A stretch of 26,304 nucleotides of DNA, taken from positions 1 to 26,304 of IMG/VR virus record IMGVR_UViG_3300032047_002907; one strand, written 5' to 3'. The notes under the pieces were generated by a model that was given only the letters and a program-made list of their open reading frames with translations, did not search any database and was not told the origin of the DNA. Origin of the DNA: a virus. Of this stretch, positions 1 to 14,406 are shown one piece after another (within the stretch, counting starts at the first letter, position 1; each line of letters opens with the position of its first letter). A program made the position numbers and the translations under genes.

Positions 1-62
1 TGAAATTCCTCTTCTAACTTCTTTTCTTTGGCTATTTCTTCTTTAGTTTTTTTCTTTTCCAT
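1..62 (-). CDS. Start of a charged, lysine/glutamate-rich protein (partial)
   Basis: Only the first 20 codons lie in the window and the gene runs off the left edge. The ATG at 62-60 overlaps the stop of the preceding sulfotransferase-like gene by one base (TAATG), the junction type used through this operon, which supports a real start. The visible N-terminus begins MEKKKTKEEIAKEKK and is almost entirely Lys and Glu, so it is probably helical or coiled coil. No family can be named from so short a piece. Confidence 0.6.
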   Translation of the reverse strand, partial: MEKKKTKEEIAKEKKLEEEF

Positions 63-817
63 TATATCTTTTTATAGTATTTACTTTTTTTAATCATGTT
101 CCAAAGGTAATACCAACTGTCTATCTTCGTTCTAACATTAAAGTCATAGTTATCTTTTACTTTATAATCTATATACTTATTATCTTTTCTTAAGTTGTCA
201 AAAGCTTGTATAACAACTTGTTTCTGAGAATGTGTATTGGTAACATTTACATTTGGTATGGTACATCCTTGGAATCTCTTATCTAATGTAACTAACCAAG
301 GTATGAAGCTTTCTTTTCTTAATGAAGCTAAGTCTATAAAAATTAATTTCATACCCTTCCACTTAGGGTTATTATAAATATTATCCACCCAAAATTTAAA
401 TGCCGGTTCATTAGTATAATGTAGTCTACTATTAATTTTAGTTTGAAAATGAAAACTAGTAGGATCCTTATCTACATTATATTCAGGTTTTTTAAATTCT
501 TTTTTTAGGTAGTATTGAACTCTTTTTAACGAATTGTCTAAATTATCTCCTGAAAAGGCTCCGATCAATTCTAAATGATCTCTAAAAGATTGTATAAATT
601 CACTTTTAATCCTACTCCATTCATCTCTTATAGGAAAAATCAAAGTAAGATCTTTATTATTAAATTCTTTTTGATCAAAGTGGAGATGTCCTTCTACATC
701 ATCATCTACTTCCCAATTATTTATATCAGGATTATCTCTACCTATTCTTTTTATAGATTGGCTACCATTTTTTGGTATACCTATTATTCTTACGTTTTCA
801 GTTCCTGTTAATCTCAT
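62..817 (-). CDS. Sulfotransferase-like protein (second of two)
   Basis: A 251-residue protein with the layout of a PAPS-dependent sulfotransferase. After a short beta strand comes IPKNGSQS at residues 14-21, matching the 5'-phosphosulfate loop (PKxGT/S type). A second strand is followed by IRDEWSRIKSEF, which matches the 3'-phosphate-binding element (Arg, then Arg and Ser one helical turn on). Such enzymes move sulfate from PAPS to a hydroxyl, often on a carbohydrate. The ATG start lies inside the last 20 bases of the upstream putative glycosyltransferase gene, so the two are tightly coupled and may act on the same product. The CysC-like kinase at 5715-6179 could supply PAPS. The family is divergent and the acceptor unknown; the call rests on two motifs. 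Confidence 0.6.
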   Translation of the reverse strand: MRLTGTENVRIIGIPKNGSQSIKRIGRDNPDINNWEVDDDVEGHLHFDQKEFNNKDLTLIFPIRDEWSRIKSEFIQSFRDHLELIGAFSGDNLDNSLKRVQYYLKKEFKKPEYNVDKDPTSFHFQTKINSRLHYTNEPAFKFWVDNIYNNPKWKGMKLIFIDLASLRKESFIPWLVTLDKRFQGCTIPNVNVTNTHSQKQVVIQAFDNLRKDNKYIDYKVKDNYDFNVRTKIDSWYYLWNMIKKSKYYKKI

Positions 818-1652
818 TTGTATAAGGGTTAATTTTTTTTATCAAACTTTTATCAAAAGTTACTTTAAGTTTTTGAAATTTTTCGTGAAATTCATACTGG
901 AAGTCCGATGAATTATCGTATATATTTTGTAATTTATTATGTTTATATAAATCAAGTATATAATCAACGTGTACACTCCTGATTATTTGTGAGTATCCTT
1001 CGATAGGGCAATTAGCTAATTTTTGATCTACAATATATGTGGCACTAGTTGCATGTCCTATAACTCTATCATTAATTTTATATTCAGAAATATTATCATA
1101 CAAGCTAGAAAATTTATCTATAGAAAAATTGCCACCAACTACAAATAAATCATCCATATAAAAACATTCTACTTCTTTACCATTTATATCTAACTTTCTA
1201 TACGGTAATGTACCTGTACCGGTATAAACCATGTTTTTATTAAGAATAAATTTATCACCGTTTTTATAATTGTTGGACCTTAATAAAAGATCTCTAATAT
1301 TATTTAGTAAATCTAAACCTAGATAAATATCAGGACGTGTAGCTATTACACAATCATACTTTATGTTATGTTTTTTAGCATATTCATTTTTAAGAATATT
1401 TGCAGATTTACATAAATAAGCATGACATAATAGTTGTTCGGTATATAGAGATTCTTTTTGATCATGTAACTTATATTTTGTTATAAATGAATAAGAATTC
1501 ATATCATATTCAACATTATCGTATTTATCATCCCAAGTAGCTAAGAAAAAATCAAATTCTACATCTGAGTATATACTGTTATAGAGTTCGAATACTTTAG
1601 AACATACATTCCAATCTCTTACTTGTCCTGCTAGTAATATCGCTATTCTCAT
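798..1652 (-). CDS. Putative glycosyltransferase of the GQ-R-W / RPD family (copy 1)
   Basis: A 284-residue protein clearly related to the product of 6176-6895. Shared landmarks in order: an N-terminal strand ending in GQVRDWN, DFFLATWDD, YDCVIATRPDIYLG near the middle, and a later DDLFVVGG. This layout (nucleotide-binding N-terminal strand, Asp-containing central motif, acidic motif further on) suggests a GT-A type glycosyltransferase, but the family name is uncertain. I recognise similar proteins only as putative glycosyltransferases of phages and large viruses. Its ATG overlaps the stop of the carbamoyltransferase by four bases (ATGA), and its 3' end overlaps the sulfotransferase-like gene, so the three probably work on one molecule. 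Confidence 0.5.
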   Translation of the reverse strand: MRIAILLAGQVRDWNVCSKVFELYNSIYSDVEFDFFLATWDDKYDNVEYDMNSYSFITKYKLHDQKESLYTEQLLCHAYLCKSANILKNEYAKKHNIKYDCVIATRPDIYLGLDLLNNIRDLLLRSNNYKNGDKFILNKNMVYTGTGTLPYRKLDINGKEVECFYMDDLFVVGGNFSIDKFSSLYDNISEYKINDRVIGHATSATYIVDQKLANCPIEGYSQIIRSVHVDYILDLYKHNKLQNIYDNSSDFQYEFHEKFQKLKVTFDKSLIKKINPYTNEINRN

Positions 1653-3313
1653 TTTTTAGTTACTATAAGTTTATCTATTACTAAGTGATCTATATCAGAA
1701 TCTAAAAATCTTTCTATAGCCTGCTCTGGTGTTCTAGTTATTGTTTGATCTTTTAAATTATAAGAAGTATTTAATACTACTTCTGCACCGGATATTTTAC
1801 CTAACTCTTTTAATAAATTGTAGTAAAGTTTATTTTGGTATTTATCGACTGTCTGAACTCTACATGAACCGTCAATATGTGTTGCTGCTTGGAATTTATT
1901 AGTTTTAGCCTGTAGTACCATATTCATATACGGTACACTTTGTTGTAAATCAAACCAAGTAGATGCTTGATTAACTGTTACTGAAGGAGCAAAAGGTCTA
2001 AATCCTTCTCTCTTTTTAATTACCCTATTTAATTTATCTCTCATACTTGCGTCTCTAGGAGAAGCTAATATAGAACGATTACCTAAAGCTCTTGCTCCAA
2101 ATTCCATTCTACCTTGAAACCAAGCTACAATCTTTTGATTATTAATTATTTCTGCTGTTCTTACTACAAGTTTATCGTAATCAAAATATTCAGCAGTAAC
2201 TTTATCTTTATAGTTAATTAAAATCTTTTTTATTTCATTGTACGTATATCCATTTCCTAAATAAGGAGTGCTATTATCTACAGCATAACCTGAGTATGGA
2301 TTATTTATTAAGCAAGCTCCGATTGCAGATCCAGCATCAGAAGGAGCAAAAGGTATAAATACAGATTTAAAGTGTTTGTACGCTAATACATTTGCAACTC
2401 CATTATAAGCACATCCTCCACCTAAACATATATTAGGACTATCAGTAAGTTCTTTTGCTTTATAAACTAACTTTTCAAACTCTCTTTCGTAAATTTTTTG
2501 TAGTGCTGCTGCTAAATCTTTATGATCTTGAGTTATAGGTTCTTCTTTTAATCTAGGAGGAATTCCTAAAAGCATACAAAATTCTAAGTCAAACATTACT
2601 TCTTTAGAATACTCCCAAGTAAAGTATTTTTGATCTATTTTTAAATACTGTTTCTTATCGAATATCTTTGATAATTTATTAAAGTATTTAGTCGGATTTC
2701 CAAAAGGTGCTAACCCCATTACTTTATATTCTCCTTCATTAGGTTTAAATCCTAAATATGCAGTAATAGTAGAGTATAACATTCCTAAAGAGTTAGGAAA
2801 ATCTATACTATACATTTTAGTAACATCAGGACCTACACCTTTAGATATAGTAATTGTTTCCCATTCACCAACTCCGTCAACTGTGAGTATTGCAGCTTTT
2901 TTATATGGACTTATAAAGTAGCTAAAAGCAGCATGCGATAAATGATGATCTGTGTATTTTATTAAACCTTTGTATTGGAAATGACGTTTAAGTAAATTTT
3001 TAGGAGAATTAAAATAATAGTTATAAAGAAAAATACATCTACTTCTAAAAGTTTTGAATATATGTTTATTAAACGTTTTGAGAACTCTGTTTTTCTTAAC
3101 CTTAGGTTTTTCATACCAACATACTTCATTAATATCATTTAAATTCTCTATTCCTGCTTCCGATAATACATAGGCTATAGCATTAACAGGAAAAGAAGAA
3201 TCATGTTTAATTTCTGTAAATCTTTCTTCTTCTGCTGCTGCTAAAACTTTACCATCCTGAACTATACAAGCTGCTGAATCATGGTAAAAAGCTGATATTC
3301 CTAATTGTATCAT
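1649..3313 (-). CDS. Carbamoyltransferase of the NodU/CmcH/TobZ family (copy 1)
   Basis: A 554-residue two-domain enzyme, near the usual family length. The N-terminal kinase-like domain opens with GISAFYHDSAACIV and carries the metal-binding DHHLSHAA (122-129), TVDGVG (144-149), GGGCAYNG near 298-305 and SDAGSAIG near 325-332. The C-terminal YrdC-like domain has GRMEFGARALGNRSIL at 401-416 and KREGFRPFAP, the carbamoyl-phosphate/adenylate site. The family makes carbamoyl-adenylate from carbamoyl phosphate and ATP and transfers the carbamoyl group to a hydroxyl on a sugar or antibiotic. All visible catalytic residues are intact. Its ATG overlaps the stop of the 52-residue gene before it by one base. 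The paralogue at 11550-13130 is quite divergent, so the two probably have different acceptors. Confidence 0.93.
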   Translation of the reverse strand: MIQLGISAFYHDSAACIVQDGKVLAAAEEERFTEIKHDSSFPVNAIAYVLSEAGIENLNDINEVCWYEKPKVKKNRVLKTFNKHIFKTFRSRCIFLYNYYFNSPKNLLKRHFQYKGLIKYTDHHLSHAAFSYFISPYKKAAILTVDGVGEWETITISKGVGPDVTKMYSIDFPNSLGMLYSTITAYLGFKPNEGEYKVMGLAPFGNPTKYFNKLSKIFDKKQYLKIDQKYFTWEYSKEVMFDLEFCMLLGIPPRLKEEPITQDHKDLAAALQKIYEREFEKLVYKAKELTDSPNICLGGGCAYNGVANVLAYKHFKSVFIPFAPSDAGSAIGACLINNPYSGYAVDNSTPYLGNGYTYNEIKKILINYKDKVTAEYFDYDKLVVRTAEIINNQKIVAWFQGRMEFGARALGNRSILASPRDASMRDKLNRVIKKREGFRPFAPSVTVNQASTWFDLQQSVPYMNMVLQAKTNKFQAATHIDGSCRVQTVDKYQNKLYYNLLKELGKISGAEVVLNTSYNLKDQTITRTPEQAIERFLDSDIDHLVIDKLIVTKK

Positions 3314-3471
3314 TATCTTGGGTTTTTAACTAATCTAAAAGTACAAGCCGGTCTACCATTTATTATAGGCATACCAAACTCATCATACTCTATAGTTTTT
3401 ACTTTACTTCTTTTATTTTTAAAACGACCTACTAATATAGTATCGCCTACTTTTACATCTAATTTTATCAT
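3313..3471 (-). CDS. Small 52-residue protein, translationally coupled
   Basis: A short gene with good junctions on both sides. Its ATG at 3471-3469 overlaps the stop of the upstream 278-residue gene as ATGA, and its TAA overlaps the ATG of the carbamoyltransferase as TAATG. The product begins MIKLDVKVGDTILVGRF and continues with a Lys/Arg-rich strand, then GMPIINGRPACTFRL. The pattern VGDTILVGRFKNK suggests a small beta-barrel of KOW or SH3 type, perhaps binding RNA or protein, but this is a resemblance only. Without it the 154-base stretch between its neighbours would be the longest gap in the window. Confidence 0.75.
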   Translation of the reverse strand: MIKLDVKVGDTILVGRFKNKRSKVKTIEYDEFGMPIINGRPACTFRLVKNPR

Positions 3472-4304
3472 AATAACTTAGTATAAGTATCTAAATCTTT
3501 TTCTTTTTCTTTAATTTCAATATCTACTGTAGATATATTAGTATGGTATGATTTCTTACCCCAAAGGCTTTTGTTTTCTAAATCAACATAAAATAAATAA
3601 GTAAATTTAGATTCCTCTTTAATAAAAGGTTTTTGTTTTTCTTGGAATAAAGCACTTGGCATTTTCATAAACCAACTTTTTTTATTTTCAGGTACTTGAA
3701 TATAAAGAGGTATTGATTTAAAGTTAGCAAGATGGGCTGAAAATAGAGTATGAGCTGAACCTATAAAGAACTTTTCTGGTCTATCTAATAAAGGTATTCC
3801 TAGTTGTCCATATTTCATAAAAGACCAATACTGTTCAGGTTTATATTGATCTCTCCACGCTATAGAGTTAAACATATCATCCATTCTCCATTCATAGTCT
3901 ATAGGGTATAAATCTCTTACTATAGTTGGGTATTTTTTGTCGACCTCTCTTATTTTATTAGTTAATTCCCCAGAACTAATATTATCAATATCTAATCCTT
4001 TACAGAAGTTTTTCATTATTTCATAATTAAAATGACCATAAGGGGTAGACCTTATATCATTTATAAAAAAACTAACAGGAAAATTAAAATACACTAAAAT
4101 TTCACCTAAACGAGTCCTTCTAACTTGTGACTGCATTTGGTATCTTATAACTGGTTCATTATCGTTACTAATAATATAGGTTTCTCTATAACTATCAGGG
4201 GAGACTTCTACTTTATAGTTATTAAATTTAGACTTAAAACTATCAACAAGTTTACTCTCAGCAACTACGTATTCTGATGTTCTTATTATATCGAAGTTTT
4301 TCAT
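3468..4304 (-). CDS. Unrecognised 278-residue protein
   Basis: I do not recognise a family. The protein is soluble-looking, with no signal peptide or membrane segment. It is rich in aromatic residues, with stretches such as PVSFFINDIRSTPYGHF, YEWRMDDMFNSIAWRDQY and FFIGSAHTLFSAHLANF, and ends in a charged tail. It is fully embedded in the operon: the upstream DUF2061 gene stops at 4305, directly before its ATG, and its TGA overlaps the start of the 52-residue gene. Its place between the sulfation-type genes and the first carbamoyltransferase suggests a part in the same surface or DNA modification pathway, but nothing in the sequence shows a catalytic motif I can name. Confidence 0.8.
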   Translation of the reverse strand: MKNFDIIRTSEYVVAESKLVDSFKSKFNNYKVEVSPDSYRETYIISNDNEPVIRYQMQSQVRRTRLGEILVYFNFPVSFFINDIRSTPYGHFNYEIMKNFCKGLDIDNISSGELTNKIREVDKKYPTIVRDLYPIDYEWRMDDMFNSIAWRDQYKPEQYWSFMKYGQLGIPLLDRPEKFFIGSAHTLFSAHLANFKSIPLYIQVPENKKSWFMKMPSALFQEKQKPFIKEESKFTYLFYVDLENKSLWGKKSYHTNISTVDIEIKEKEKDLDTYTKLL

Positions 4305-4514
4305 TTACTTTTTATCTATACCAAATTTACTCAGTTTGTACCAAGCTCTTTCATGCAAGTAGTATAGCACCATCTTTGTTATTACCTCTACTGCTCCAAT
4401 AGCTGCTCCTAACTTAATACTACCTGTTATTAACCAAGATAATAAAAAAGTATCTAAAGTGCCAACTATTCTCCAAGTAATTGTTTTTAATATGTGTCTT
4501 TTTTTACTTACCAT
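4305..4514 (-). CDS. DUF2061 small membrane protein
   Basis: A 69-residue inner membrane protein of the DUF2061 family. It has the typical opening (KRHILKTITWRIVGTLDTF), a hydrophobic segment LLSWLITGS, then GAAIGAVEVITKMVLYYLHERAW, giving two likely membrane helices with a charged loop and tail. The function is unknown. As I recall, in bacteria such genes often sit beside sulfate-activation (cysD/N/C) genes, which would fit the CysC-like kinase and sulfotransferases here; that association should be checked. The ATG overlaps the stop of the nucleotidyltransferase gene by one base. Confidence 0.85.
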   Translation of the reverse strand: MVSKKRHILKTITWRIVGTLDTFLLSWLITGSIKLGAAIGAVEVITKMVLYYLHERAWYKLSKFGIDKK

Positions 4515-4870
4515 TATAACTTACCTTCTTTTCTCATCTGTTCTCTTATCTTAGTAGCTGATATCTCTTCAATTTCTTTTGGTGGTATATGTTCGATAAC
4601 TTCATAACCAACACCTCTACCATAGTTAATTGATTCGATATCAGGTATTATTGTTGTAATAACCCTACCATCTTGTATCAATTCTTTTAGCTCACCTTCG
4701 TGAACCATCTTTTGTATTTCTTTAGCAGTCCAAGGTTGATTTTCATTTGGCTCAACATCTCTGATTGCTAAACATACATTCTTTCCTTCTTGTAATCTTT
4801 GATTGATTAACCAAAGATGGCCTTGATGTAGAGGTTGCCATCTACCTATAAACATTGAATATTGTTTCAT
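4514..4870 (-). CDS. HxGH-type nucleotidyltransferase (adenylyl/cytidylyltransferase fold)
   Basis: A compact 118-residue enzyme of the nucleotidylyltransferase superfamily. It has GRWQPLHQGH at 9-18, with the two histidines of the HxGH motif, and ISATKIR at 103-109, the second nucleotide-binding signature (usually ISxTxxR). The first motif most resembles archaeal-type NMN adenylyltransferases (GRFQPxHxGH), but the protein is shorter than those. It lacks the QxRNP signature of ATP sulfurylase. It may make NAD, activate a sugar or alcohol phosphate, or conceivably form APS for the nearby CysC-like kinase; sequence does not decide. It is coupled to the oxygenase upstream (TAATG), with an initiation region nearly identical to that gene's own. 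Confidence 0.8.
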   Translation of the reverse strand: MKQYSMFIGRWQPLHQGHLWLINQRLQEGKNVCLAIRDVEPNENQPWTAKEIQKMVHEGELKELIQDGRVITTIIPDIESINYGRGVGYEVIEHIPPKEIEEISATKIREQMRKEGKL

Positions 4871-4892
4871 TATATTAAACTTTTTGTTTTTT
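4866..4892 (-). repeat. Translation-start repeat, copy B
   Basis: Twenty-seven bases ending at the nucleotidyltransferase start codon match 26 of 27 bases at 5351-5377, including AAGTTTAATATAATGAA. In this copy the repeat also encodes the last residues and stop of the oxygenase gene. Confidence 0.75.
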
Positions 4893-5355
4893 TATCTATA
4901 TTATTACTTGTTGCCCAAATTGCAATTGAGTATCTAATTCCTTCTGTTACTTTTTTTACTTCATGAATTGTTGATGCATCCATCACAAAAGCATCTCCTT
5001 GATTACCACTTACCCTCTTTCTACTAATATATAAATCACCACCTGAGAAAGTATTATTTTTTGATAAATTTATAATAACTGTTTTTAATCTCAATCTATC
5101 TGGGTCATTGATACCACCTCTATCAGCATGAGGTAAAAAATAAAAACCTTTTTGATATTTGTTAATGTTAAAAACAGGTTGATTAATAATATTAATAGTG
5201 TTTAATTTTTTTTCTAAAAATTTAAAATTACTATAATCTTTAATATGAAAAAATTCCAACTTTGAAGCGCCATATGATTTTATAGAATCATATTTTTTTG
5301 TAAAATCTATAATATATTCACACTCGGATTCTGTTAAGAAATTTTCTAATTTCAT
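4870..5355 (-). CDS. 2-oxoglutarate/Fe(II)-dependent oxygenase
   Basis: A 161-residue protein with the double-stranded beta-helix signature of prolyl-4-hydroxylase-like oxygenases. Iron ligands are HAD (H76, D78) and H131 in STIHEV, and R141 in GIRYSIAIWA is placed to bind the 2-oxoglutarate carboxylate. FSGGDLYI and GDAFVMDAS are typical strands between the ligands. Such phage enzymes hydroxylate proteins, nucleobases or small molecules; the substrate here is unknown. It sits between a HAD phosphatase and a nucleotidyltransferase in the modification block, so it may install the hydroxyl that a sulfo-, carbamoyl- or glycosyltransferase then uses. That role is inference. Confidence 0.85.
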   Translation of the reverse strand: MKLENFLTESECEYIIDFTKKYDSIKSYGASKLEFFHIKDYSNFKFLEKKLNTINIINQPVFNINKYQKGFYFLPHADRGGINDPDRLRLKTVIINLSKNNTFSGGDLYISRKRVSGNQGDAFVMDASTIHEVKKVTEGIRYSIAIWATSNNIDKKTKSLI

Positions 5356-5377
5356 TATATTAAACTTGTTGTTTTTT
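5351..5377 (-). repeat. Translation-start repeat, copy A
   Basis: The partner of 4866-4892, ending at the oxygenase start codon. Here the repeat lies almost wholly in the gap after the HAD phosphatase stop. The single mismatch is at 5368. The shared leader has no Shine-Dalgarno sequence. Confidence 0.75.
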
Positions 5378-5715
5378 CATATTCCTTTATCTCTTATTAA
5401 ATTTATTGCTGTTGCTCTATCTTCATTTACTTTTGGATCCTTATCATTAATTAAAAATCTAGGTCCTCTTTCTATACCCATTACTAATCTATCAAAAGGT
5501 ATATCGTTAATTTTTAACTCTTTAACTGTATGTTCATATAACCAATCTGGTCTAGCTGTAGTTAGAACTATCATATGACCATGTTCTTTTTTATTTCGTA
5601 AGTACTCTACTGTACTCGTTATTGGTTCAGCTTGAGAAGTTTCGTATGTCTCAAATTTTCTGTATTTAAATATAGTTCCGTCTATATCTACAAAGTATGT
5701 ATTTTTCTTTTCCAT
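5377..5715 (-). CDS. Small HAD-superfamily phosphatase
   Basis: A 112-residue capless HAD hydrolase. Motif I is DIDGT at residues 10-14 (nucleophile D10, acid/base D12), motif II is in IVLTTAR, and the acidic metal-binding end is FLINDKDP, with Asp residues in the expected place. AEPITSTVEYLRNKKEHGHMIV resembles small HAD phosphatases found in sugar-nucleotide and capsule clusters, so a sugar phosphate is a plausible substrate; a nucleotide or polynucleotide 3'-phosphate is an alternative. It is coupled to the APS kinase by TAATG. Confidence 0.85.
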   Translation of the reverse strand: MEKKNTYFVDIDGTIFKYRKFETYETSQAEPITSTVEYLRNKKEHGHMIVLTTARPDWLYEHTVKELKINDIPFDRLVMGIERGPRFLINDKDPKVNEDRATAINLIRDKGI

Positions 5716-6179
5716 TAAATTTTATTTATAATTTTTAGCAATGATTCTTCTGGTGTATCTTTAGTAGTATCTATATCTATAAAGTTTTCAGTTGGAGGCA
5801 TGTATGCTATTGCTTTGAAATGATCTCTTTCTCTAGGTTCTGAGGTATGGACATATATTTCAGTTATATTATCTTCTAATAATTTTTTAAAATCTTCTCT
5901 TTGATCTATATAAGGAGCTACTAAGGATACTATTATATCATTACCTTGATTATGTAAATAATGAGCTATTCTTTGAGCTGTTCCTACATTTTCTACTCTA
6001 CCTTTAATAGAATAGTCTTTATTAGAGAACAGTTCCCTCATATCATCTCCGTCTATCCTATAAACTTTATACCTTTTATTAGGATCTTTACCGTTTTTTA
6101 AATTTTCTAAATAAGTTTTAAGTAGGTTACCTAAAACTGTTTTTCCATGAGCAGGTTGCCCTGTGAGCCAATATATCAT
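5715..6179 (-). CDS. cysC: Adenylylsulfate (APS) kinase, CysC-like
   Basis: A 154-residue P-loop kinase matching CysC in order: Walker A GQPAHGKT (7-14), DGDDMREL (43-50) where CysC has DGDxxR, SIKGRVENVGTAQRIA as the FSxxxRxEN..RR element, and SLVAPYIDQRED for the SxxSPYxxxRD APS-binding stretch. It is somewhat shorter than bacterial CysC (about 200 residues) and has a variant P-loop. The family phosphorylates APS at the 3' position to give PAPS, the sulfate donor for sulfotransferases. Two sulfotransferase-like proteins in the same operon support that role. No recognisable ATP sulfurylase is in the window, so APS would come from the host or from another enzyme. Confidence 0.82.
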   Translation of the reverse strand: MIYWLTGQPAHGKTVLGNLLKTYLENLKNGKDPNKRYKVYRIDGDDMRELFSNKDYSIKGRVENVGTAQRIAHYLHNQGNDIIVSLVAPYIDQREDFKKLLEDNITEIYVHTSEPRERDHFKAIAYMPPTENFIDIDTTKDTPEESLLKIINKI

Positions 6180-6895
6180 ATTAAATCTCTTTGTAACTTA
6201 AGTTGTTGGTTGTCTATACTTATAGGCCAATTATAAATATTCATTTTTTCTAAAAATGTACTGAGAAAAGCATGAGCTCCTCTCTGTATTAAATTAACAT
6301 TATAATAATCTTCTATCATTAAAAATAAATTCATAGGTATTCTATTACCTAAAATAAATTTATCCTCAACATATAATGGTACTGTATTTTTTTTATTTGA
6401 AGGTCTAGCTACTGCACCTATACTAGTGAATACTCCTCTGTTATCTAAGTAAACTTCAGTATTTTCCCCTTTTAAAATATTTAAAAATGTTTTTAAGGTA
6501 CCATTACTGAAAATTAAATCTGGTCTGGATATCAAAACACAATCGTAATTTTTATTAAATTTTTTTTCATATTTAAGCCTTATAAAGGTGCTTTCAGTAA
6601 AATGATGACACATGCACCAAAAAGAAGGCTCTAATGGTGATCCATCAAAAGAAACCTTTTTATCAAATTCTATATTTTGAGTTTCAATATTTGTATCTTT
6701 AAAAAAAGATTTATCTATTTTTACTAAGTTACCTGTAGAATTATAGTCATATTGTTTTCCTTCTTTATCCCAGCAACTCAGAAAAAAATCTACTTCGATA
6801 TCATTATCGTTAAAATACTTTTTAAATTTTTTCCAATACCTATACGACTGGTTCCAATATCTTATTTGCCCTGATAGTTGTACTGCTAAGGTCAT
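6176..6895 (-). CDS. Putative glycosyltransferase of the GQ-R-W / RPD family (copy 2)
   Basis: A 239-residue paralogue of the protein at 798-1652. Matching landmarks are SGQIRYWN at the N-terminus, DFFLSCWDKE, YDCVLISRPDLIFS and EDKFILGN. It is about 45 residues shorter than copy 1, mostly at the C-terminus. A nucleotide-sugar-using transferase is the best guess from fold layout, but no biochemically defined family was recognised. It is overlapped by four bases on both sides (ATGA), downstream of a sulfotransferase and upstream of the APS kinase, so it belongs to the sulfation part of the operon. Confidence 0.5.
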   Translation of the reverse strand: MTLAVQLSGQIRYWNQSYRYWKKFKKYFNDNDIEVDFFLSCWDKEGKQYDYNSTGNLVKIDKSFFKDTNIETQNIEFDKKVSFDGSPLEPSFWCMCHHFTESTFIRLKYEKKFNKNYDCVLISRPDLIFSNGTLKTFLNILKGENTEVYLDNRGVFTSIGAVARPSNKKNTVPLYVEDKFILGNRIPMNLFLMIEDYYNVNLIQRGAHAFLSTFLEKMNIYNWPISIDNQQLKLQRDLI

Positions 6896-7491
6896 ATTAC
6901 TGTCTGAGGATTAAATTGTCTGTATCTTTTCTTAGGGTCAACATACGGCATTATTTGACCTACTTTAATATCTATTCCCCAATTATCAATACATTTTTGT
7001 ATTTTTTGCTCATCGCCACTATATAGGTCTTCATACCAGGTTATAGGTATATGAGTTTTTTTACTATACCATTGTAAGTAGTTATGTGAATTTTCCATGT
7101 CTTTCCATAGTCTTCTGTCGAAAGTTAAAGGATTATGGTAGTGGTACTTCTGATGCCAGTGTTTATCTTCTTTTATAAAGTAATCTTGACTTTCGTAAAT
7201 ATCTTGAAAATTTTTTCTCCCTAATAAGATAACTTTATCAAATGATCTTTTCCAGTAATCATAAAAATTAACTTCTGAATCTGTATATTCTCTAGGGATA
7301 TGTCTTGTAAGAGTTTTTACTAAACTATTATCTGCTAATTTGAAAGGAAACTTTCTAATTAAAGTACCTGCTTTATCTCGCATGTAATAATTAAAAGGTT
7401 CACCGTACTTCTTTAACCCTAATATCTCACTCAGAGCGGTATAAAGTACGGTAGAACCTGTTCTAGGATTAGCTAGTAATAGGATTTTCAT
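6892..7491 (-). CDS. Sulfotransferase family protein (first of two)
   Basis: A 199-residue protein opening with ILLLANPRTGSTVLYTAL. The NPRTGST loop at 8-14 is the 5'-phosphosulfate-binding motif of PAPS sulfotransferases. FDKVILLGRKNFQDIYESQ further on matches the strand and helix that bind the PAPS 3'-phosphate (Arg then Ser). It is a compact version of the family (usually 250-300 residues). It starts one base into the QueC stop and overlaps the paralogous putative glycosyltransferase by four bases. With the CysC-like kinase two genes on, PAPS production and use are encoded within 1.8 kb. The acceptor is unknown, most likely a carbohydrate hydroxyl. Confidence 0.78.
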   Translation of the reverse strand: MKILLLANPRTGSTVLYTALSEILGLKKYGEPFNYYMRDKAGTLIRKFPFKLADNSLVKTLTRHIPREYTDSEVNFYDYWKRSFDKVILLGRKNFQDIYESQDYFIKEDKHWHQKYHYHNPLTFDRRLWKDMENSHNYLQWYSKKTHIPITWYEDLYSGDEQKIQKCIDNWGIDIKVGQIMPYVDPKKRYRQFNPQTVI

Positions 7492-8342
7492 TATCCCGCG
7501 TACTCTGCAAGTACCTTTTGAACATGATTTTTAGCTACTTCATAATCCACCGGACCAGTTTCGTCTTCATATTGAACAGGGTCTGGACGATCCAAAGCAA
7601 TAAAAGCTTCAATTCGTTCAACAGATGAAGCAGACTTATAATCACTGTTACCACTAGGGTAAGGCTTATAACTAGTATTAGTTCTAGAATAGACTTCATC
7701 GAATTCTAAATTTAAACTTGTACAACTTTTTTCTCCATCTTGCAAAATACCGAACTTATCAATATCTAAGTAAGGAGTATAAAACTTAACTCTATCAGCA
7801 TCCCAATTTCCCATTTTAAATGCTTCAAAATCAGCATCTCTAAATTCTTGTCTACAATCAGGATACACTGCATGATCACCTGCATGAATACCTAAACTAA
7901 TAAAAGTTTCTTCTTTTGTTTTGTTAGCAATAGATAAAGCTACTGCTTGAGTTAAAGAAGAAAATATTTTATTTCTATTAGGAACAACAGTCTCTTTCAT
8001 ATTATCTTGCTCATAGTGACCTTCCGGAACGTCATCACCTCCTTCCACTAAAGCCGAATCTAATAAATTAACTAATCCATCAAGTTTAATAACTTGATAA
8101 CTTACAGGCATATACCTTAATTTTGCAATAGTTGCGTTAGTTTCTGGTTCAGTACCTACAACTTGATTACATTTACTATTTACGTAATCGATTAGAGCTT
8201 GAGCTCTTTCTAATTCTACTCTATGTTTTTGACCGTAATCAAAAGAGAGTGCTGTTACATTATAACCTTCTCTTAATAAATGTAACAATAACGTAGAAGA
8301 ATCCATTCCTCCACTTAATGATAAAACAGCATTTTTTGCCAT
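7491..8342 (-). CDS. queC: 7-cyano-7-deazaguanine (preQ0) synthase QueC homologue lacking the zinc cysteines
   Basis: A 283-residue QueC-like protein. The PP-loop is SGGMDSS (10-16), followed by ALSFDYGQKHRVEL, VVPNRNKIFSSL and GIHAGDHAVYPDCRQEF, all typical of QueC, which converts carboxydeazaguanine to preQ0 with ATP and ammonia. It is longer than most bacterial QueC (about 220-230) because of an insertion before VVPNRN and a C-terminal extension. The four cysteines that bind structural zinc in bacterial QueC are all absent: the TxSCY cysteine is S224, and the CGxCxxC..R cluster aligns with D234, S237 and S240 before R243. The function may be retained in a zinc-free fold or changed. Phages use preQ0 pathways to make 7-deazaguanine DNA; the partner genes are not in the window. 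Confidence 0.87.
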   Translation of the reverse strand: MAKNAVLSLSGGMDSSTLLLHLLREGYNVTALSFDYGQKHRVELERAQALIDYVNSKCNQVVGTEPETNATIAKLRYMPVSYQVIKLDGLVNLLDSALVEGGDDVPEGHYEQDNMKETVVPNRNKIFSSLTQAVALSIANKTKEETFISLGIHAGDHAVYPDCRQEFRDADFEAFKMGNWDADRVKFYTPYLDIDKFGILQDGEKSCTSLNLEFDEVYSRTNTSYKPYPSGNSDYKSASSVERIEAFIALDRPDPVQYEDETGPVDYEVAKNHVQKVLAEYAG

Positions 8343-8949: not shown

Positions 8950-8993
8950 AATATATAATATAGTTAAAATTTATTAATAAAACAACTATTTTA

Positions 8994-10673
8994 CTAGTTT
9001 TCTCTTCTTTCTTCTTTAGGGTAATGGTCGAATCTATCGTGTTCTGTAGGAGTTAACAATAATATGCCAGTTTTTACTATATTTTCCCTTGTTAGTTGAA
9101 ATATATGTGACATCCAGGTCTGCTCAAATGGATTAGCCCACTTAGTATCTAAAAACATTTTCTTACTACCTTTTTTTGTAATTACTTGAGGCCAGTTACA
9201 ATAATAAACTTCGCCAGTAGCGTATGGTAACCCTTTATGTGATTTAATATGATTAAATTTAGTATTAGGAAAATCAAAAGTATGATTATTCTTAACAGGA
9301 TGAGCTGGGAAGTACTCTTTTCTTTTATCACCGGGTACATTATGCCAAGCCCATTGTTTTAAGTTATCACCAAAAAACTCTGTCATATTAAGTTTAAGGT
9401 AATCAAGTTCTTCTACATTACATATATCTAATGATTTTTTATATAAGCCGCTAACTTTCCTTAAAAAACCATTTTTACAGGTATTTTCATCTCCATTATA
9501 AAAAAACATATCATCTTCATAGAATAAATAATGTTGTAAGTCTTCTTGCTCTTCAAAATGTTCAGCTATAAATTGTCTGCCTCCGCATATACCTATATTA
9601 TCTTTTTTTATTTCCTCAAAACCCCACTTTTTACACAATTCTTTATACTTTTCATCAGTAGATCTATCTATAGAATTATTTAATAATATCTTACGGTTAG
9701 GTAATTCTAAATAATCCTTATCGTACTGTTCAAAAGATTTACATAGGGTATCAAACTGATCTGGTGAGTTATAAGTGATTACGTACAGAGCTACTTTTCT
9801 ATAATCTAATCTTTCACTTTTTGGTTCTGTATATTCAGCTTTAATTTCTAATTGATCGTTTTTAAGTTTTTCAAAAAAGTAATAAATTAGGCCATTATCC
9901 TCAATTTCACAGTAATTAACTTCACGAGGAAACTGGTATACTAAAAGGGAAAATAAAGATTCTTCTGTTCCCATATAACCGTCATTCAATGTCGTGCTTA
10001 ATAGGTCATAGTATCTACTATTAATTTCTTTTATACAATCTTTAGGTCCTCCAAAAAAACCTCCTCTTGCTACCTTATTAACATCTTTTCCTTTAGTATA
10101 CGTATTAATTTCAGGATAGGAAAAACCGTGAATTTCCGTATTTGCCTTATAAGGAAAACAAATGAATAAGAATTTAGTAACCTTATCTAAAAGTTTATCT
10201 AAGACAAGATCAGACGTAAAATACCCAATGCTAACAGTTGTAGATATAGCTGCATCTATCCAATATAAGTGTTCAGAGTCAAATTTGTCTAAAATACCTG
10301 CATCGTTTAATAAAAACATCTTAGACATTACAAGTGGATTATACATTTCTAGTTTACCTTGAGTAGATTCAGCTAACCAACCTGCTTGATTTTTCCAATC
10401 ATCACTATTTCTTATTGTCTGTATTTTATCATAAAATTCATTTTTAAACCAATCTTGACTTCTTACTATAAACTGGGTATTTTCTTCAGTTCTTTCTTTG
10501 AAGACTACTTCTCTTAGTTCTTCATCTCCAAATACTATTAGATTATAAGGTACTTTTAATAATTCTTTAAATTTGGTAATATAATGTTCTTCATAGCCTC
10601 TATTCCAACCAACTCCTAAAGAATCTCTTTTAATATCCCATAACCCTGTAACTAATGTAACTTTACTATTCAT
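8994..10673 (-). CDS. Two-domain glycosyltransferase: HtrL/WlaTC-like plus GT2-like
   Basis: A 559-residue fusion. Residues 1 to about 270 look like an HtrL/WlaTC-type glycosyltransferase: TLVTGLWDIKRDS at the start, LIVFGDEEL, and YWIDAAIS at 137-144. Residues about 290 to 559 look like a GT-A family 2 enzyme: VALYVITYNSPDQF at 294 onward and FYEDDMFF, whose EDDM (386-389) is the likely metal/nucleotide-sugar motif. Two catalytic domains in one chain suggest two successive sugar transfers. The upstream gene (10666-11565) encodes a second HtrL-like protein and overlaps this start by eight bases. The sugar and acceptor are unknown. Confidence 0.75.
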   Translation of the reverse strand: MNSKVTLVTGLWDIKRDSLGVGWNRGYEEHYITKFKELLKVPYNLIVFGDEELREVVFKERTEENTQFIVRSQDWFKNEFYDKIQTIRNSDDWKNQAGWLAESTQGKLEMYNPLVMSKMFLLNDAGILDKFDSEHLYWIDAAISTTVSIGYFTSDLVLDKLLDKVTKFLFICFPYKANTEIHGFSYPEINTYTKGKDVNKVARGGFFGGPKDCIKEINSRYYDLLSTTLNDGYMGTEESLFSLLVYQFPREVNYCEIEDNGLIYYFFEKLKNDQLEIKAEYTEPKSERLDYRKVALYVITYNSPDQFDTLCKSFEQYDKDYLELPNRKILLNNSIDRSTDEKYKELCKKWGFEEIKKDNIGICGGRQFIAEHFEEQEDLQHYLFYEDDMFFYNGDENTCKNGFLRKVSGLYKKSLDICNVEELDYLKLNMTEFFGDNLKQWAWHNVPGDKRKEYFPAHPVKNNHTFDFPNTKFNHIKSHKGLPYATGEVYYCNWPQVITKKGSKKMFLDTKWANPFEQTWMSHIFQLTRENIVKTGILLLTPTEHDRFDHYPKEERREN

Positions 10674-11565
10674 GTCCTATTTCTTTTAAAAAATGGTAGA
10701 AACTTGTTTGTGTATTTAACCATTCTGGTGTAATCCAGTCCATTCCTCCTGTGTTTTCATGGTACCAGGTAGTAAATAACCAAGATTTATAATCTTCAGG
10801 TTTGCTTTCCGCCATATGAGTTAAAATTCCTTCATGATTTAAAACAAATTCTTGATTAATACACTGTTCTGCTCTTTTATAGAATTCATTTAAAAAACCT
10901 TTTATTTTAGTACTATGGCCGCCTAAAATACCACCTATAGTTTGACCATTACAGCAGAATATATCTCCTAAAAGCTTATTAATATCGTATGATTGATGGA
11001 AATGTTGTTTATTTTTAATATTGATTAATTTATCTCCTACCCAGTTGTTTATATGTTTGAAAAAATCTGGTGTAAATACTTTGTCAAACTTGTAATTCTC
11101 CATATTATAAGACATACCTGTAAGTTCTTTTGGTTTTTTAGCGTATTTATCAGGCCATAATCCTCTGTGGGATAACCCACAATCTATCCAATATGTGTAG
11201 TCAGCACCTTTTTTAACTTCTTCTTCTAATAAGTCTAATTTAGCCCAATCTATTTCATGATAAAAATCAAATTTTCCAGGATATTTATTTTTTAATTCTC
11301 CTATCTTTTTAGAATATTTGAAGCTAGATAAATCTCTAACTTCTACTTCTACATTTTTAACATTATTACTTTTTAGTTCATTAGTTAATGCATCGTATAC
11401 GTTATCACCGCAAACTACCTTTATAGGTAAATTCATTTTTGATAATTGTACTATAGAGTATAGGTACCTATGGTATCTAGCGATTACATTATGTAAATGA
11501 AAAGGATAATTTGGTATTCCTTCACTATTTTTGAAATAAAAAGCTGTAACTAAACGTGTTTCCAT
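10666..11565 (-). CDS. HtrL/WlaTC-like glycosyltransferase
   Basis: A 299-residue protein with the same landmarks as the N-terminal half of its neighbour: RLVTAFYF at the start, RYHRYLYSIVQLSKMNLPIKVVCGD, and YWIDCGLSH at 125-133. This is the pattern of the HtrL/WlaTC family, best known from lipopolysaccharide/lipooligosaccharide biosynthesis. The C-terminal part (CCNGQTIGGILGG, NHEGILTHM, WYHENTGGMDW) has several His and Asp residues that could complete the active site. It overlaps the carbamoyltransferase upstream by 16 bases and the fused glycosyltransferase downstream by eight. Confidence 0.7.
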   Translation of the reverse strand: METRLVTAFYFKNSEGIPNYPFHLHNVIARYHRYLYSIVQLSKMNLPIKVVCGDNVYDALTNELKSNNVKNVEVEVRDLSSFKYSKKIGELKNKYPGKFDFYHEIDWAKLDLLEEEVKKGADYTYWIDCGLSHRGLWPDKYAKKPKELTGMSYNMENYKFDKVFTPDFFKHINNWVGDKLINIKNKQHFHQSYDINKLLGDIFCCNGQTIGGILGGHSTKIKGFLNEFYKRAEQCINQEFVLNHEGILTHMAESKPEDYKSWLFTTWYHENTGGMDWITPEWLNTQTSFYHFLKEIGHE

Positions 11566-13130
11566 TTTATATAGTAGTCTTCTAAAATTAATTTATCCAT
11601 TCTGGTGTTTTTAAAAACCTCTATAGCTTCTGCATAAGAAGATAAAATTGGTTTTTTATTTACGTTAAAAGAAGTATTTAGCAGCACACCAAAGCCTGAT
11701 GCTTTTTCAAATTCTGTTAATAAGTTATACAGCCATTCATTTTGCTCTTTAGTAACAGTTTGTACTCTTGCAGTATTATCCACATGAGTTATTGATGATA
11801 GTTTTTTACGCCATTTAGCTTTGACTGTAGGGCAAAAGCTCATAAATCTACTCTCATCTTTGAAATTAAAATACTTATTTACATCCTCTAATCTACAAAC
11901 AGGAGCAAAAGGTCTATACCATTCTCTACTTTTAACTTTTTCATTAAGCACCTCTTTCATTTTTAACATACCCGGGTTACATAATATACTCCTATTACCT
12001 AAAGCTCTTGGACCATGTTCTGAGGTACCTCTTACGCATCCTATGATATGACCTTTCATTAAATCATCACATACATCTAAATATTTTAACTCTATACCTC
12101 TTTGTTGTTCTATATAGTACATTAATCTATCTTTATCTAGTACTTCAGTTCCGGAATAAGTTAAATCAATAGCTTTTTTAGGTTTAATATGATCGAGTAT
12201 CATGCCTGAGGCTAATCCACAATCATTAGGATTAGGGGGTACAAATATTTCTCTTTTATATCTTGATTTTAATTTACTATTAAGAATAATATTTAATGCA
12301 CATCCTCCAACTAATATGATAGGTAATTTAGGGTATTTTTTTACAAATGGATCTGCATGTTGAAAAAATACTTGTTCAAAAGCTTCTTGAGAGGTTGCAG
12401 CTATATCATAAGCTTCTTGACCTTCAATTCTGTTTTCTGTATCAAATTTAATACCTGTATTTTTTGATAATTCTTTGAGAAAATCTTTGTAATTATTACC
12501 ATCAGGTTTTTGAATATAGAATCTAGTAAAATGAGGTAACCATTCATTATTAATTTTACCATAAGAACAAAGCCCCATTAGTTTACCTGAGTATACTAAA
12601 TTACCTATATTTAATCCCGGTTCAAATTTTATATCTTTTAAATATTGGCCAAATATCATGTAGGGAAAACCTAAATCCAATTTATGTTTAGATATGCATT
12701 CAATAGTATTTCTATCTTTAGCATGATACATGTTAAAGAAACCATCATTCCCACCACCATCAAATGATATAATTATTGCTTCATTATAATCAGTTTGGTA
12801 TAAACCAGATGCTGCATGACTATAATGGTGAAGACAATTAATATAGTTTTTAGCGGGTATTAGTTTTTCATAATGAGTTTTTACTCCATCTTCTATAGTA
12901 TCAGTATTTTGGTAATAACAAGTATCGTAGTTCTTAATACCGTATTCCCTGTAAATATAATCTAAAATATACTTTAACAGGTAGGGTCTGGTATAAGAAA
13001 TCAAGTATTGACTATATCCTGCGTTCTTTTGACCTAAAAACCTCTCAATCTCTATAACTGTAAGAACTTTTCCATTTTGTTCAACAGCTACAGCAGCATT
13101 ATGAGAACCGTAAAATGCTATATTAGCCAT
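11550..13130 (-). CDS. Carbamoyltransferase of the NodU/CmcH/TobZ family (copy 2)
   Basis: A 526-residue carbamoyltransferase. The N-terminal domain starts IAFYGSHNAAVAVEQNGKVL and has HHYSHAA at 101-107, FDGGGNDG from residue 123, VGGCALN near 275 and PNDCGLASG near 302. The C-terminal domain has GTSEHGPRALGNRSIL at 368-383 and REWYRPFAP. These are the metal, ATP and carbamoyl-phosphate sites of the family, and none looks broken. It differs from copy 1 throughout outside these motifs, so it is not a recent duplicate. It lies between three glycosyltransferase-type genes, which suggests a sugar hydroxyl as acceptor. Confidence 0.92.
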   Translation of the reverse strand: MANIAFYGSHNAAVAVEQNGKVLTVIEIERFLGQKNAGYSQYLISYTRPYLLKYILDYIYREYGIKNYDTCYYQNTDTIEDGVKTHYEKLIPAKNYINCLHHYSHAASGLYQTDYNEAIIISFDGGGNDGFFNMYHAKDRNTIECISKHKLDLGFPYMIFGQYLKDIKFEPGLNIGNLVYSGKLMGLCSYGKINNEWLPHFTRFYIQKPDGNNYKDFLKELSKNTGIKFDTENRIEGQEAYDIAATSQEAFEQVFFQHADPFVKKYPKLPIILVGGCALNIILNSKLKSRYKREIFVPPNPNDCGLASGMILDHIKPKKAIDLTYSGTEVLDKDRLMYYIEQQRGIELKYLDVCDDLMKGHIIGCVRGTSEHGPRALGNRSILCNPGMLKMKEVLNEKVKSREWYRPFAPVCRLEDVNKYFNFKDESRFMSFCPTVKAKWRKKLSSITHVDNTARVQTVTKEQNEWLYNLLTEFEKASGFGVLLNTSFNVNKKPILSSYAEAIEVFKNTRMDKLILEDYYIKWKHV

Positions 13131-14406
13131 TCTTTTCTATTCCTAAATTACCACTTAATCTTTTACACCACTCTTTACTTACTGAGTAAGGCCATACACT
13201 CCAACTTGAAGGAAGAGCTCCTGTATAAGTTCTCCAAAGGTTTATCCATCCGTCTTTTTGTGTAGCTATTAAATTAGCTACTTCTTCTTTTGAAGCATCT
13301 TGTCTATGAATATCTTTTCCGTCTTTATCATGAAATGCTACTGCCCAAAAATCATAATCTTTTTCAGGTACATCATTTATGTGTATATCGATACAGTGTT
13401 TAAATACTTTATGAAATGAATTATCATAATCTTCAACTATAGGATTAGGAGGATATCCTACTTTGTCTAACGTATATTGCTGTACTCCTCTATCTTTAAA
13501 TCTTATACCTGCATATTTTTCATAATCTGCTATTGTTCTTTCTTCTCCTAAATGATAAGGAACTAATTGCTTTTTCATACAAGGAGTACATACAGTACCA
13601 TCGGTACCTAATAATCCTTTCAGCCTATAAAATGTAGTTTTATTTTTCTCTACCCATGTATCATCATCATCCCAATGTTTGGTTCTACCTTTTCTAGTAT
13701 ATTCATGCCATGCTATTATCTTATGGGGGTGAAATAAATCGTAACCAAAAGTAAACGATCTTACTGCTAATGCTATTTCTTCTCCATGAAAATAATATTT
13801 AGGATCGTGTTGGACTTCTTTACAAAAAATACCTAAAGTAAAAGTAAAATGAGCAGAAAAGAATCTAGCAGGTACTGGTTCAGTTCTTTCTTTCCAGTCA
13901 TCTATGGTAGCAGGAAGGAAAAATATTACTCCTTCTGGTGTGAATCTATCGAAATCCATTTTCCATGGAGCTTGTACTCTTCCATCAGGGTCATTAGCTG
14001 GATCATATGAAGGTATGTAACCGGTTAAAAGAGGTTTATGGTGTCCTTTCTTTTGGAGCTGTTTAATCATTCTAATACATTCACTATCCCATCCTTTTAC
14101 AAATCTATGATGAGAATCTAATTGTAATGTATAATCTTCTCCGTTATATTTCTGTTGAATAGTATTTCTAGCCCAACAAGTACCGTTAGTTTCAGTATGA
14201 GGAATATCTATAATAATAAATCTATCATCATTTAAATACTCATCTAACGTATCCCATTCATCCTCAGATGTATGTTGCCATGCTACGCAGATTTTTAATC
14301 TATCAGGATTATCTGCTTTATCTAAGATATCCTCTAATGTTTTTCTTAATTCTGGATCTCTATAACTTGCAATCTGTACAAAAATTGTACCGTTTTTAAT
14401 TGTCAT
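13123..14406 (-). CDS. GlcNAc-transferase-like glycosyltransferase
   Basis: A 427-residue protein whose first 260 residues match the GlcNAc (GT60-type, Skp1 GlcNAc-transferase) family: IFVQIASYRDPELRKTLEDIL at the N-terminus, then WARNTIQQKYNGEDYTLQLDSHHRF, with D97-S98-H99 as the DxH metal/nucleotide motif, and FHGEEIALAVRSFTFGYDLF. A C-terminal region (about 320-427) ending WSVWPYSVSKEW is not part of the core family and may bind the acceptor. Homologues add GlcNAc to hydroxyproline or sugars. It overlaps the small CGC protein by four bases and the carbamoyltransferase by eight. Metal ligands are present. Confidence 0.8.
   Translation of the reverse strand: MTIKNGTIFVQIASYRDPELRKTLEDILDKADNPDRLKICVAWQHTSEDEWDTLDEYLNDDRFIIIDIPHTETNGTCWARNTIQQKYNGEDYTLQLDSHHRFVKGWDSECIRMIKQLQKKGHHKPLLTGYIPSYDPANDPDGRVQAPWKMDFDRFTPEGVIFFLPATIDDWKERTEPVPARFFSAHFTFTLGIFCKEVQHDPKYYFHGEEIALAVRSFTFGYDLFHPHKIIAWHEYTRKGRTKHWDDDDTWVEKNKTTFYRLKGLLGTDGTVCTPCMKKQLVPYHLGEERTIADYEKYAGIRFKDRGVQQYTLDKVGYPPNPIVEDYDNSFHKVFKHCIDIHINDVPEKDYDFWAVAFHDKDGKDIHRQDASKEEVANLIATQKDGWINLWRTYTGALPSSWSVWPYSVSKEWCKRLSGNLGIEKNG

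Follow-up and report, generated by a model that had tools for sequence, protein, structure and literature searches.

A candidate phage sulfation module pairing a short-lid APS kinase with a small HxGH nucleotidyltransferase, probably a minimal ATP sulfurylase

The window, meaning the whole stretch of DNA that was analysed, is an IMG/VR virus record of 26.3 kb (IMGVR_UViG_3300032047_002907). It carries an operon in which a relative of adenosine 5'-phosphosulfate (APS) kinase, KIN, lies with a small HxGH nucleotidyltransferase, NTase, and two sulfotransferase-like proteins, ST_A and ST_B. The reading we favour, with moderate confidence, is that the operon is a self-contained sulfation module, in which NTase would supply APS, KIN would convert it to 3'-phosphoadenosine 5'-phosphosulfate (PAPS) and the sulfotransferases would modify an acceptor. 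As suggested by its genome context, NTase is probably a minimal, non-orthologous ATP sulfurylase. On balance, we also think it likely that NTase represents a third type of ATP sulfurylase, of ∼115 residues, with an NMNAT-like HxGH core and no recognisable sequence kinship to the two known types, present in uncultured marine bacteria, marine group III archaea and hundreds of phages. Together with the short-lid APS kinase it would form a minimal PAPS synthase, allowing phage glycan or protein sulfation independent of host sulfate activation.

A preliminary description of the sequence had placed an APS kinase-type enzyme together with PAPS-type sulfotransferases in a single phage operon that would use APS from the host. 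The first part of this interpretation was upheld, with all of the quoted motifs located and the long same-strand open reading frames (ORFs) overlapping or abutting at their ends. The reliance on host APS was not, as the kinase is accompanied by an NTase that substitutes for ATP sulfurylase in cells. That description had overlooked NTase, as well as NodU-type carbamoyltransferases at 1649-3313 and 11550-13130 and QueC at 7491-8342. Since the window is a virus record of 26.3 kb, the operon possibly extends beyond position 1. The features of the operon are as follows.

4514-4870, minus strand: NTase, HxGH nucleotidyltransferase, 118 aa, proposed minimal ATP sulfurylase (CTP_transf_like, 2.3e-7)
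5715-6179, minus strand: KIN, short-lid CysC / APS kinase relative, 154 aa (PF01583, 7e-16)
6892-7491, minus strand: ST_A, sulfotransferase by predicted fold, 199 aa (conserved P-loop, R92/S101)
62-817, minus strand: ST_B, probable sulfotransferase, 251 aa (motifs IPKNGSQS and IRDEWSRIKSEF)
5377-5715, minus strand: HAD phosphatase, 112 aa (several HAD families matched weakly, best 3.7e-5)
4305-4514, minus strand: DUF2061 small membrane protein, 69 aa (PF09834, 2.7e-24)
4870-5355, minus strand: 2-oxoglutarate (2OG)-Fe(II) oxygenase, 161 aa, variable passenger (PF13640, 4.4e-11)
6176-6895, minus strand: uncharacterised protein, paralogue of 798-1652 (phrog_13607)
798-1652, minus strand: uncharacterised protein, paralogue of 6176-6895 (phrog_13607, 8.6e-6)
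1649-3313, minus strand: NodU-type O-carbamoyltransferase adjoining the cassette (PF16861/PF02543)
3468-4304, minus strand: uncharacterised protein, 278 aa (no family match)

The kinase and its nucleotidyltransferase partner

KIN matched the PF01583 APS_kinase profile with 59.1 bits against a gathering cut-off of 21.1, and nearly all of the matches in a PDB profile search were APS kinases. The DGDDMR and SLVAPYIDQRE motifs quoted earlier both lie in KIN, and the P-loop, DGD..R and R..N substrate residues were invariant across 32 viral kinase rows and aligned with those of canonical CysC. The canonical lid (KGLYKKAR...FTGI) was deleted throughout the short-lid clade, including its members from cysDN operons, and FTG[IVL] occurred in 0/78 kinases adjoining NTase. 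Cellular relatives of KIN, 44-53% identical, adjoin cysD and cysN in marine Flavobacteriales and are the sole PF01583 match in most such genomes; a short lid is therefore compatible with a CysC role. In the kinase tree, the viruses formed one clade (99/91) inside the short-lid clade, and the sister row was a short contig assigned to Chitinophagaceae (L089), which may itself be viral. By sequence, KIN is related to the APS kinases but its lid is shortened; APS would be its substrate.

The conserved residues of NTase include GRWQPxHxGH, R37, GRGVGY and SATxIR, an identical set being found in viruses and cells. GRWQPxHxGH and GRGVGY stand where Sat-type ATP sulfurylases have QxRNPxHxxH and GRDHAG, and the HxGH architecture differs from that of the CysDN-type enzyme, which consists of a PAPS-reductase-like CysD and the GTPase CysN. 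The GRGVGY loop is a candidate anion site. A role in nicotinamide adenine dinucleotide (NAD) salvage was considered and rejected on two grounds. NTase scored under the NadM cut-offs (PRK01153, 42.3 vs 127 bits; TIGR01527, 28.3 vs 181.2 bits), and NadD was above its cut-off in 14/18 NTase-bearing bacterial genomes, which makes a part in NAD synthesis unlikely.

The virus loci were the best 80 of 248 matches with KIN as bait and the best 80 of 586 with NTase as bait; their frequencies therefore describe close relatives, and the counts include shared-lineage effects. With KIN as bait, NTase stood beside the kinase in 78/80 loci and was its most constant partner. The reverse search found the kinase in 78/80 loci, always on the same strand and mostly with overlapping or abutting ends, a near-obligate pairing. 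Other partners in the 80 KIN loci were DUF2061 (65), HAD (42), a NodU-type relative of 1649-3313 (18), 2OG oxygenase (8), ST_A relatives (8), the 278-aa ORF (5) and ST_B (3).

Kinase and NTase are fused in L131, a Bacteroidota contig; a more distant fusion is known from phages as phrog_10255. A divergent fusion is present in two cultured phages, of Xanthomonas and Stenotrophomonas (L150:4578-5324 and L151:4590-5321), and a divergent pair in the cellular genome G195 (L165:1575-2373). These carry 'DWDF..GR' and 'YGRDVGY' or 'YGRGVGY', and their kinase lacks the R..N motif; the phage fusion may have a different job. The Xanthomonas phage AhaSv was dropped as a cultured model, its fusion being divergent and no PF00685 sulfotransferase being found. 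Among 50,697 cultured phage records, tblastn gave no match for ST_A or ST_B and three for the kinase, of which the two examined were canonical CysC of another clade; the NTase matches were NadM-type proteins or the distant fusions.

The kinase alignment, run against genomes of bacteria and archaea, yielded 61 loci. The neighbours of the kinase depend on the lineage: cysD and cysN in marine Flavobacteriales, where DUF2061 is often present too, but NTase in Marinimicrobia, marine group III archaea and a few Bacteroidota. The two partners were mutually exclusive: among 50 KIN-bearing genomes, 19 had NTase, 30 had CysD, none had both and one had neither, with Sat in a single genome (G018). Across the Marinimicrobia phylum (199 genomes), NTase was found in 14/117 genomes with an APS kinase vs 0/82 without. 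CysD and Sat were both missing from 13/14 of the NTase genomes vs 8/103 of the APS-kinase genomes without NTase (Fisher 4e-11, a descriptive value that ignores kinship and genome incompleteness). The most telling single case for replacement is G148, in which a canonical full-length cysC (PF01583, 2e-70) is followed by an NTase near the phage type whose start overlaps the cysC end; a search of this genome found no CysD or Sat. With G018 and G195 as exceptions, and with kinship ignored, NTase thus substitutes for CysD or Sat beside the APS kinase. The phage therefore probably produces APS itself, given that its kinase is accompanied by an NTase taking the place of ATP sulfurylase in cells.

The gene order in the archaea was also recorded. 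In marine group III (L098, L107) the kinase-NTase pair directly follows adenosylhomocysteinase-like and S-adenosylmethionine synthetase-like genes and precedes a glycine hydroxymethyltransferase-like gene.

Sulfotransferases and the proposed route

The preliminary description had called two proteins sulfotransferase-like. Motifs and context agree with this, as does the fold for ST_A, while neither reached a Pfam sulfotransferase model in the profile search. NPRTGST was located in ST_A and PKNGSQS in ST_B. The ST_A family alignment (13 members) conserves the P-loop, K59, R92 and S101. Structure prediction had been proposed as a check, and the AlphaFold2 model of ST_A (predicted local distance difference test, pLDDT, 84.7; predicted template modelling score, pTM, 0.84) matched solved PAPS sulfotransferases first. 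The eight best PDB fold matches were human-type dehydroepiandrosterone (DHEA)/hydroxysteroid, estrogen and tyrosylprotein sulfotransferases, most of them bound to adenosine 3',5'-bisphosphate (PAP) or PAPS, and P-loop kinases came next with similar scores. Since the fold and the conserved P-loop, R92 and S101 match sulfotransferases, the model is consistent with a PAPS site, the lack of which had been named as grounds for abandoning the proposal. By sequence, the PDB offered ST_A no more than a marginal match, to the CurM sulfotransferase, and a distant family member (L055) matched Sulfotransfer_3 at 2.5e-4, under the cut-off. ST_A is accordingly named a sulfotransferase by its predicted fold. 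ST_B, in which IPKNGSQS and IRDEWSRIKSEF are kept in four relatives, is a probable one.

Sulfotransferases clustered at the kinase in other viruses as well. Of the 23 PF00685 matches in 49 further virus contigs with the kinase (3.0 Mb), 17 lay within 2.5 kb of it, where 8% were expected (p 2e-14); positions were counted by Pfam, as models built from kinase-near clusters are biased beyond 6 kb. The sulfotransferases near the viral kinase span several families, including Sulfotransfer_1, _2 and _3 types and the ST_A family. In cells, a Crocinitomicaceae contig (G042) has the KIN-NTase pair within 10 kb of three sulfotransferases, and Sulfotransfer_3 proteins were present in 14/20 close-NTase genomes.

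In the route that we propose, NTase would join sulfate to AMP, forming APS from sulfate and ATP as in the ATP sulfurylase reaction. An adenylyl transfer of the same kind is performed by HxGH enzymes and by Sat-type ATP sulfurylases, which makes this chemistry plausible. The short-lid kinase would phosphorylate APS to PAPS, drawing the unfavourable first step forward, and ST_A, probably with ST_B, would then transfer the sulfuryl group of PAPS to an acceptor, for which a glycan of the surface or the virion is the likeliest candidate. Two further roles are guesses: removal of the by-product PAP by the HAD protein and help with sulfate entry by DUF2061. The module's neighbours in this lineage are carbamoyltransferases, a GlcNAc (N-acetylglucosamine) transferase and an HtrL-type gene, and in other phages it adjoins tail-fibre-like and sheath-like genes, as judged by inspection. 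Such neighbours seem to make phage DNA a less fitting target than a glycan or a virion protein.

Alternative explanations and opposing evidence

Several observations weigh against an ATP sulfurylase role for NTase and against the sulfation module. A direct sequence link between NTase and ATP sulfurylase was sought and not found: hhalign against 11 Sat-type proteins gave a probability of 1%, with no detectable sequence relation, and the Sat-type PF01747 profile found no match in NTase. Our claim is therefore that NTase works like an ATP sulfurylase and not that it is one. Its closest known relatives, by sequence and by fold, are nicotinamide mononucleotide (NMN) adenylyltransferases, and its conserved GRGVGY loop was modelled at a pLDDT below 50. 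KIN is without the canonical lid and falls under the NCBIfam apsK equivalog cut-off (TIGR00455, 56.6 vs 138.7 bits), probably because the lid segment is missing. In the genome comparison, G018 and G195 hold NTase and Sat together, and in G037 and eight genomes of the Marinimicrobia phylum the APS kinase is accompanied by neither NTase nor any known ATP sulfurylase. The genomes are mainly draft metagenome-assembled or single-amplified genomes from non-independent lineages. As the NTase carriers are mainly small Marinimicrobia genomes, the loss of CysD and Sat by streamlining is a confounder. Among the non-redundant virus loci, 29/60 had no recognised sulfotransferase nearby, and the genome of phage AhaSv, with its distant fusion, had no PF00685 match.

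The alternative that survives best, which we nevertheless regard as unlikely, is that the kinase converts host-made APS to PAPS for the two sulfotransferases and that NTase is unrelated. The APS kinase and sulfotransferase assignments would stand under this explanation. The nearest cultured phages by UvsX are Flavobacterium phages 'immuto' (73.5%), the virus host is likely a member of the Bacteroidota, and since marine Flavobacteriales encode CysDN, host APS would be available. It leaves aside that no partner accompanies the kinase more constantly than NTase, in viruses and cells alike, that NTase replaces CysD in the latter, and that a canonical cysC is also paired with NTase.

Next, and similarly improbable, the kinase and NTase might make another activated compound, such as a 3'-phosphorylated NDP (nucleoside diphosphate)-linked group or a sugar nucleotide, that is moved by enzymes of the sulfotransferase fold. 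A CysC-like kinase in Campylobacter capsule phosphoramidate synthesis offers a model for this. The kinase lid is unlike that of canonical CysC, NTase is of the CTP_transf_like / NadM type, and the distant pair in G195, a genome with Sat, lies near sugar-nucleotide-type genes. Against this, cysDN operons have this short-lid kinase as their sole APS kinase, NTase shares an operon with a canonical full-lid cysC, and it is Pfam sulfotransferases, not phosphotransferases, that cluster with the kinase.

A role of these genes as auxiliary metabolic genes for assimilatory sulfate reduction, the published reading of viral cysC in the available parts of PMC9529941 and PMC10914622, is very unlikely here, as sulfotransferases cluster at the kinase instead and the window has no cysH, cysI or cysJ (cysH was not searched systematically in related genomes). 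Least credible of all is a reading of NTase as an NMN adenylyltransferase serving NAD synthesis beside an unrelated kinase. NadM proteins are its closest relatives in sequence and fold, but it is shorter, falls under every NadM cut-off, occurs with NadD and is strictly paired with the APS kinase.

Neighbouring genes and comparison with known systems

The minus strand holds all of the major genes of the window, which also encodes RecA/UvsX, a helicase, a ribonucleotide reductase and a baseplate-type protein. Within the operon, the DUF2061, 2OG-Fe(II) oxygenase and HAD claims of the preliminary description were borne out by the profile matches listed above. DUF2061 is also present in cellular cysDN operons. 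A HAD domain is fused to the APS kinase in a dozen marine Flavobacteriales-type loci, mostly beside cysDN (L100, L106, L111, L113, L120, L121, L123-L125 and L127-L129); identification of the viral protein as a PAP phosphatase would be a guess. The 'glycosyltransferase-like' label given to 798-1652 and 6176-6895 found no Pfam glycosyltransferase match, only the uncharacterised phrog_13607. The two are paralogues (26% identity) that may set acceptor specificity, and 6176-6895 is a possible glycosyltransferase. Related ORFs occupy varying cassette positions in relatives such as L013. True glycosyltransferase-type matches lay outside the range described earlier, namely HtrL_YibB at 8994-10673 and the GlcNAc transferase at 13123-14406. 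Both NodU-type O-carbamoyltransferases are on the minus strand, are 28% identical to each other and may modify the same glycan as the sulfation cassette.

QueC (7491-8342, minus strand) abuts the cassette, and a preQ0 / 7-deazaguanine pathway may lie beside the sulfation genes. QueD-like and QueE-like ORFs were seen by inspection downstream in relatives (L067:15473-16042 and L060:15291-16070). PADLOC returned no anti-phage defence match except QueC, and a defence reading was set aside. Elsewhere, 22186-23511 (minus strand, 441 aa) gave a partial family A DNA polymerase match (1.2e-9, model positions 105-362 of 381), in keeping with a split or reduced polymerase. A TATAATATAG-like motif that may be a phage promoter element recurs at positions 8953, 18891, 21681 and 23809.

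The open-access literature yielded no account of the NTase partner, the NTase/CysD exclusion, a phage module combining PAPS synthesis with sulfotransferases, a new ATP sulfurylase or DUF2061 together with cysC. Phage sulfotransferases are known and their function has been called unclear (PMC10580990). The novelty lies in one step of sulfate activation that is probably performed by a new enzyme family; the route itself is known. If the proposal is correct, this kind of viral cysC concerns sulfation, and sulfur-cycle interpretations drawn from viromes would change. Sulfate esters may then sit on phage particles or on infected-cell surfaces. A metabolic hole would be filled for Marinimicrobia and marine group III archaea, whose APS kinase has no known ATP sulfurylase to go with it, and a very small enzyme potentially useful for PAPS production would be at hand.

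Comparison with known systems places the module between several of them. Like the bifunctional PAPS synthases (PAPSS; SAT-APSK fusions), it would be one unit leading from sulfate through APS to PAPS, with a homologous kinase half and natural kinase-NTase fusions; here, however, NTase has 118 aa and no sequence relation to Sat, the kinase lid is truncated and there are mostly two genes. The CysDNC operon of marine Flavobacteriales shares the short-lid kinase clade, DUF2061 and HAD, which is often fused to the kinase, but has CysD and the GTPase-driven CysN where the virus has NTase. NadM, the archaeal NMN adenylyltransferase, shares with NTase the HxGH fold and the motifs GRxQPxHxGH and, at the C-terminus, S-T--R, whereas NTase is shorter, carries GRGVGY and an invariant R37 that NadM does not show and is linked to APS kinase rather than to NAD genes. 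ST_A has the P-loop, the 3'-phosphate Arg/Ser and the fold of the SULT, TPST and Stf0 sulfotransferases, from which it differs in its identity of 10-18% and its length of about 200 aa. Finally, CysC is likewise encoded by phages carrying the viral cysC auxiliary genes of PMC9529941 and PMC10914622, the latter also reporting transcription; in the available parts of both papers these genes are filed under assimilatory sulfate reduction, with neither an NTase partner nor a link to sulfotransferases, in contrast to the paired kinase and NTase described here.

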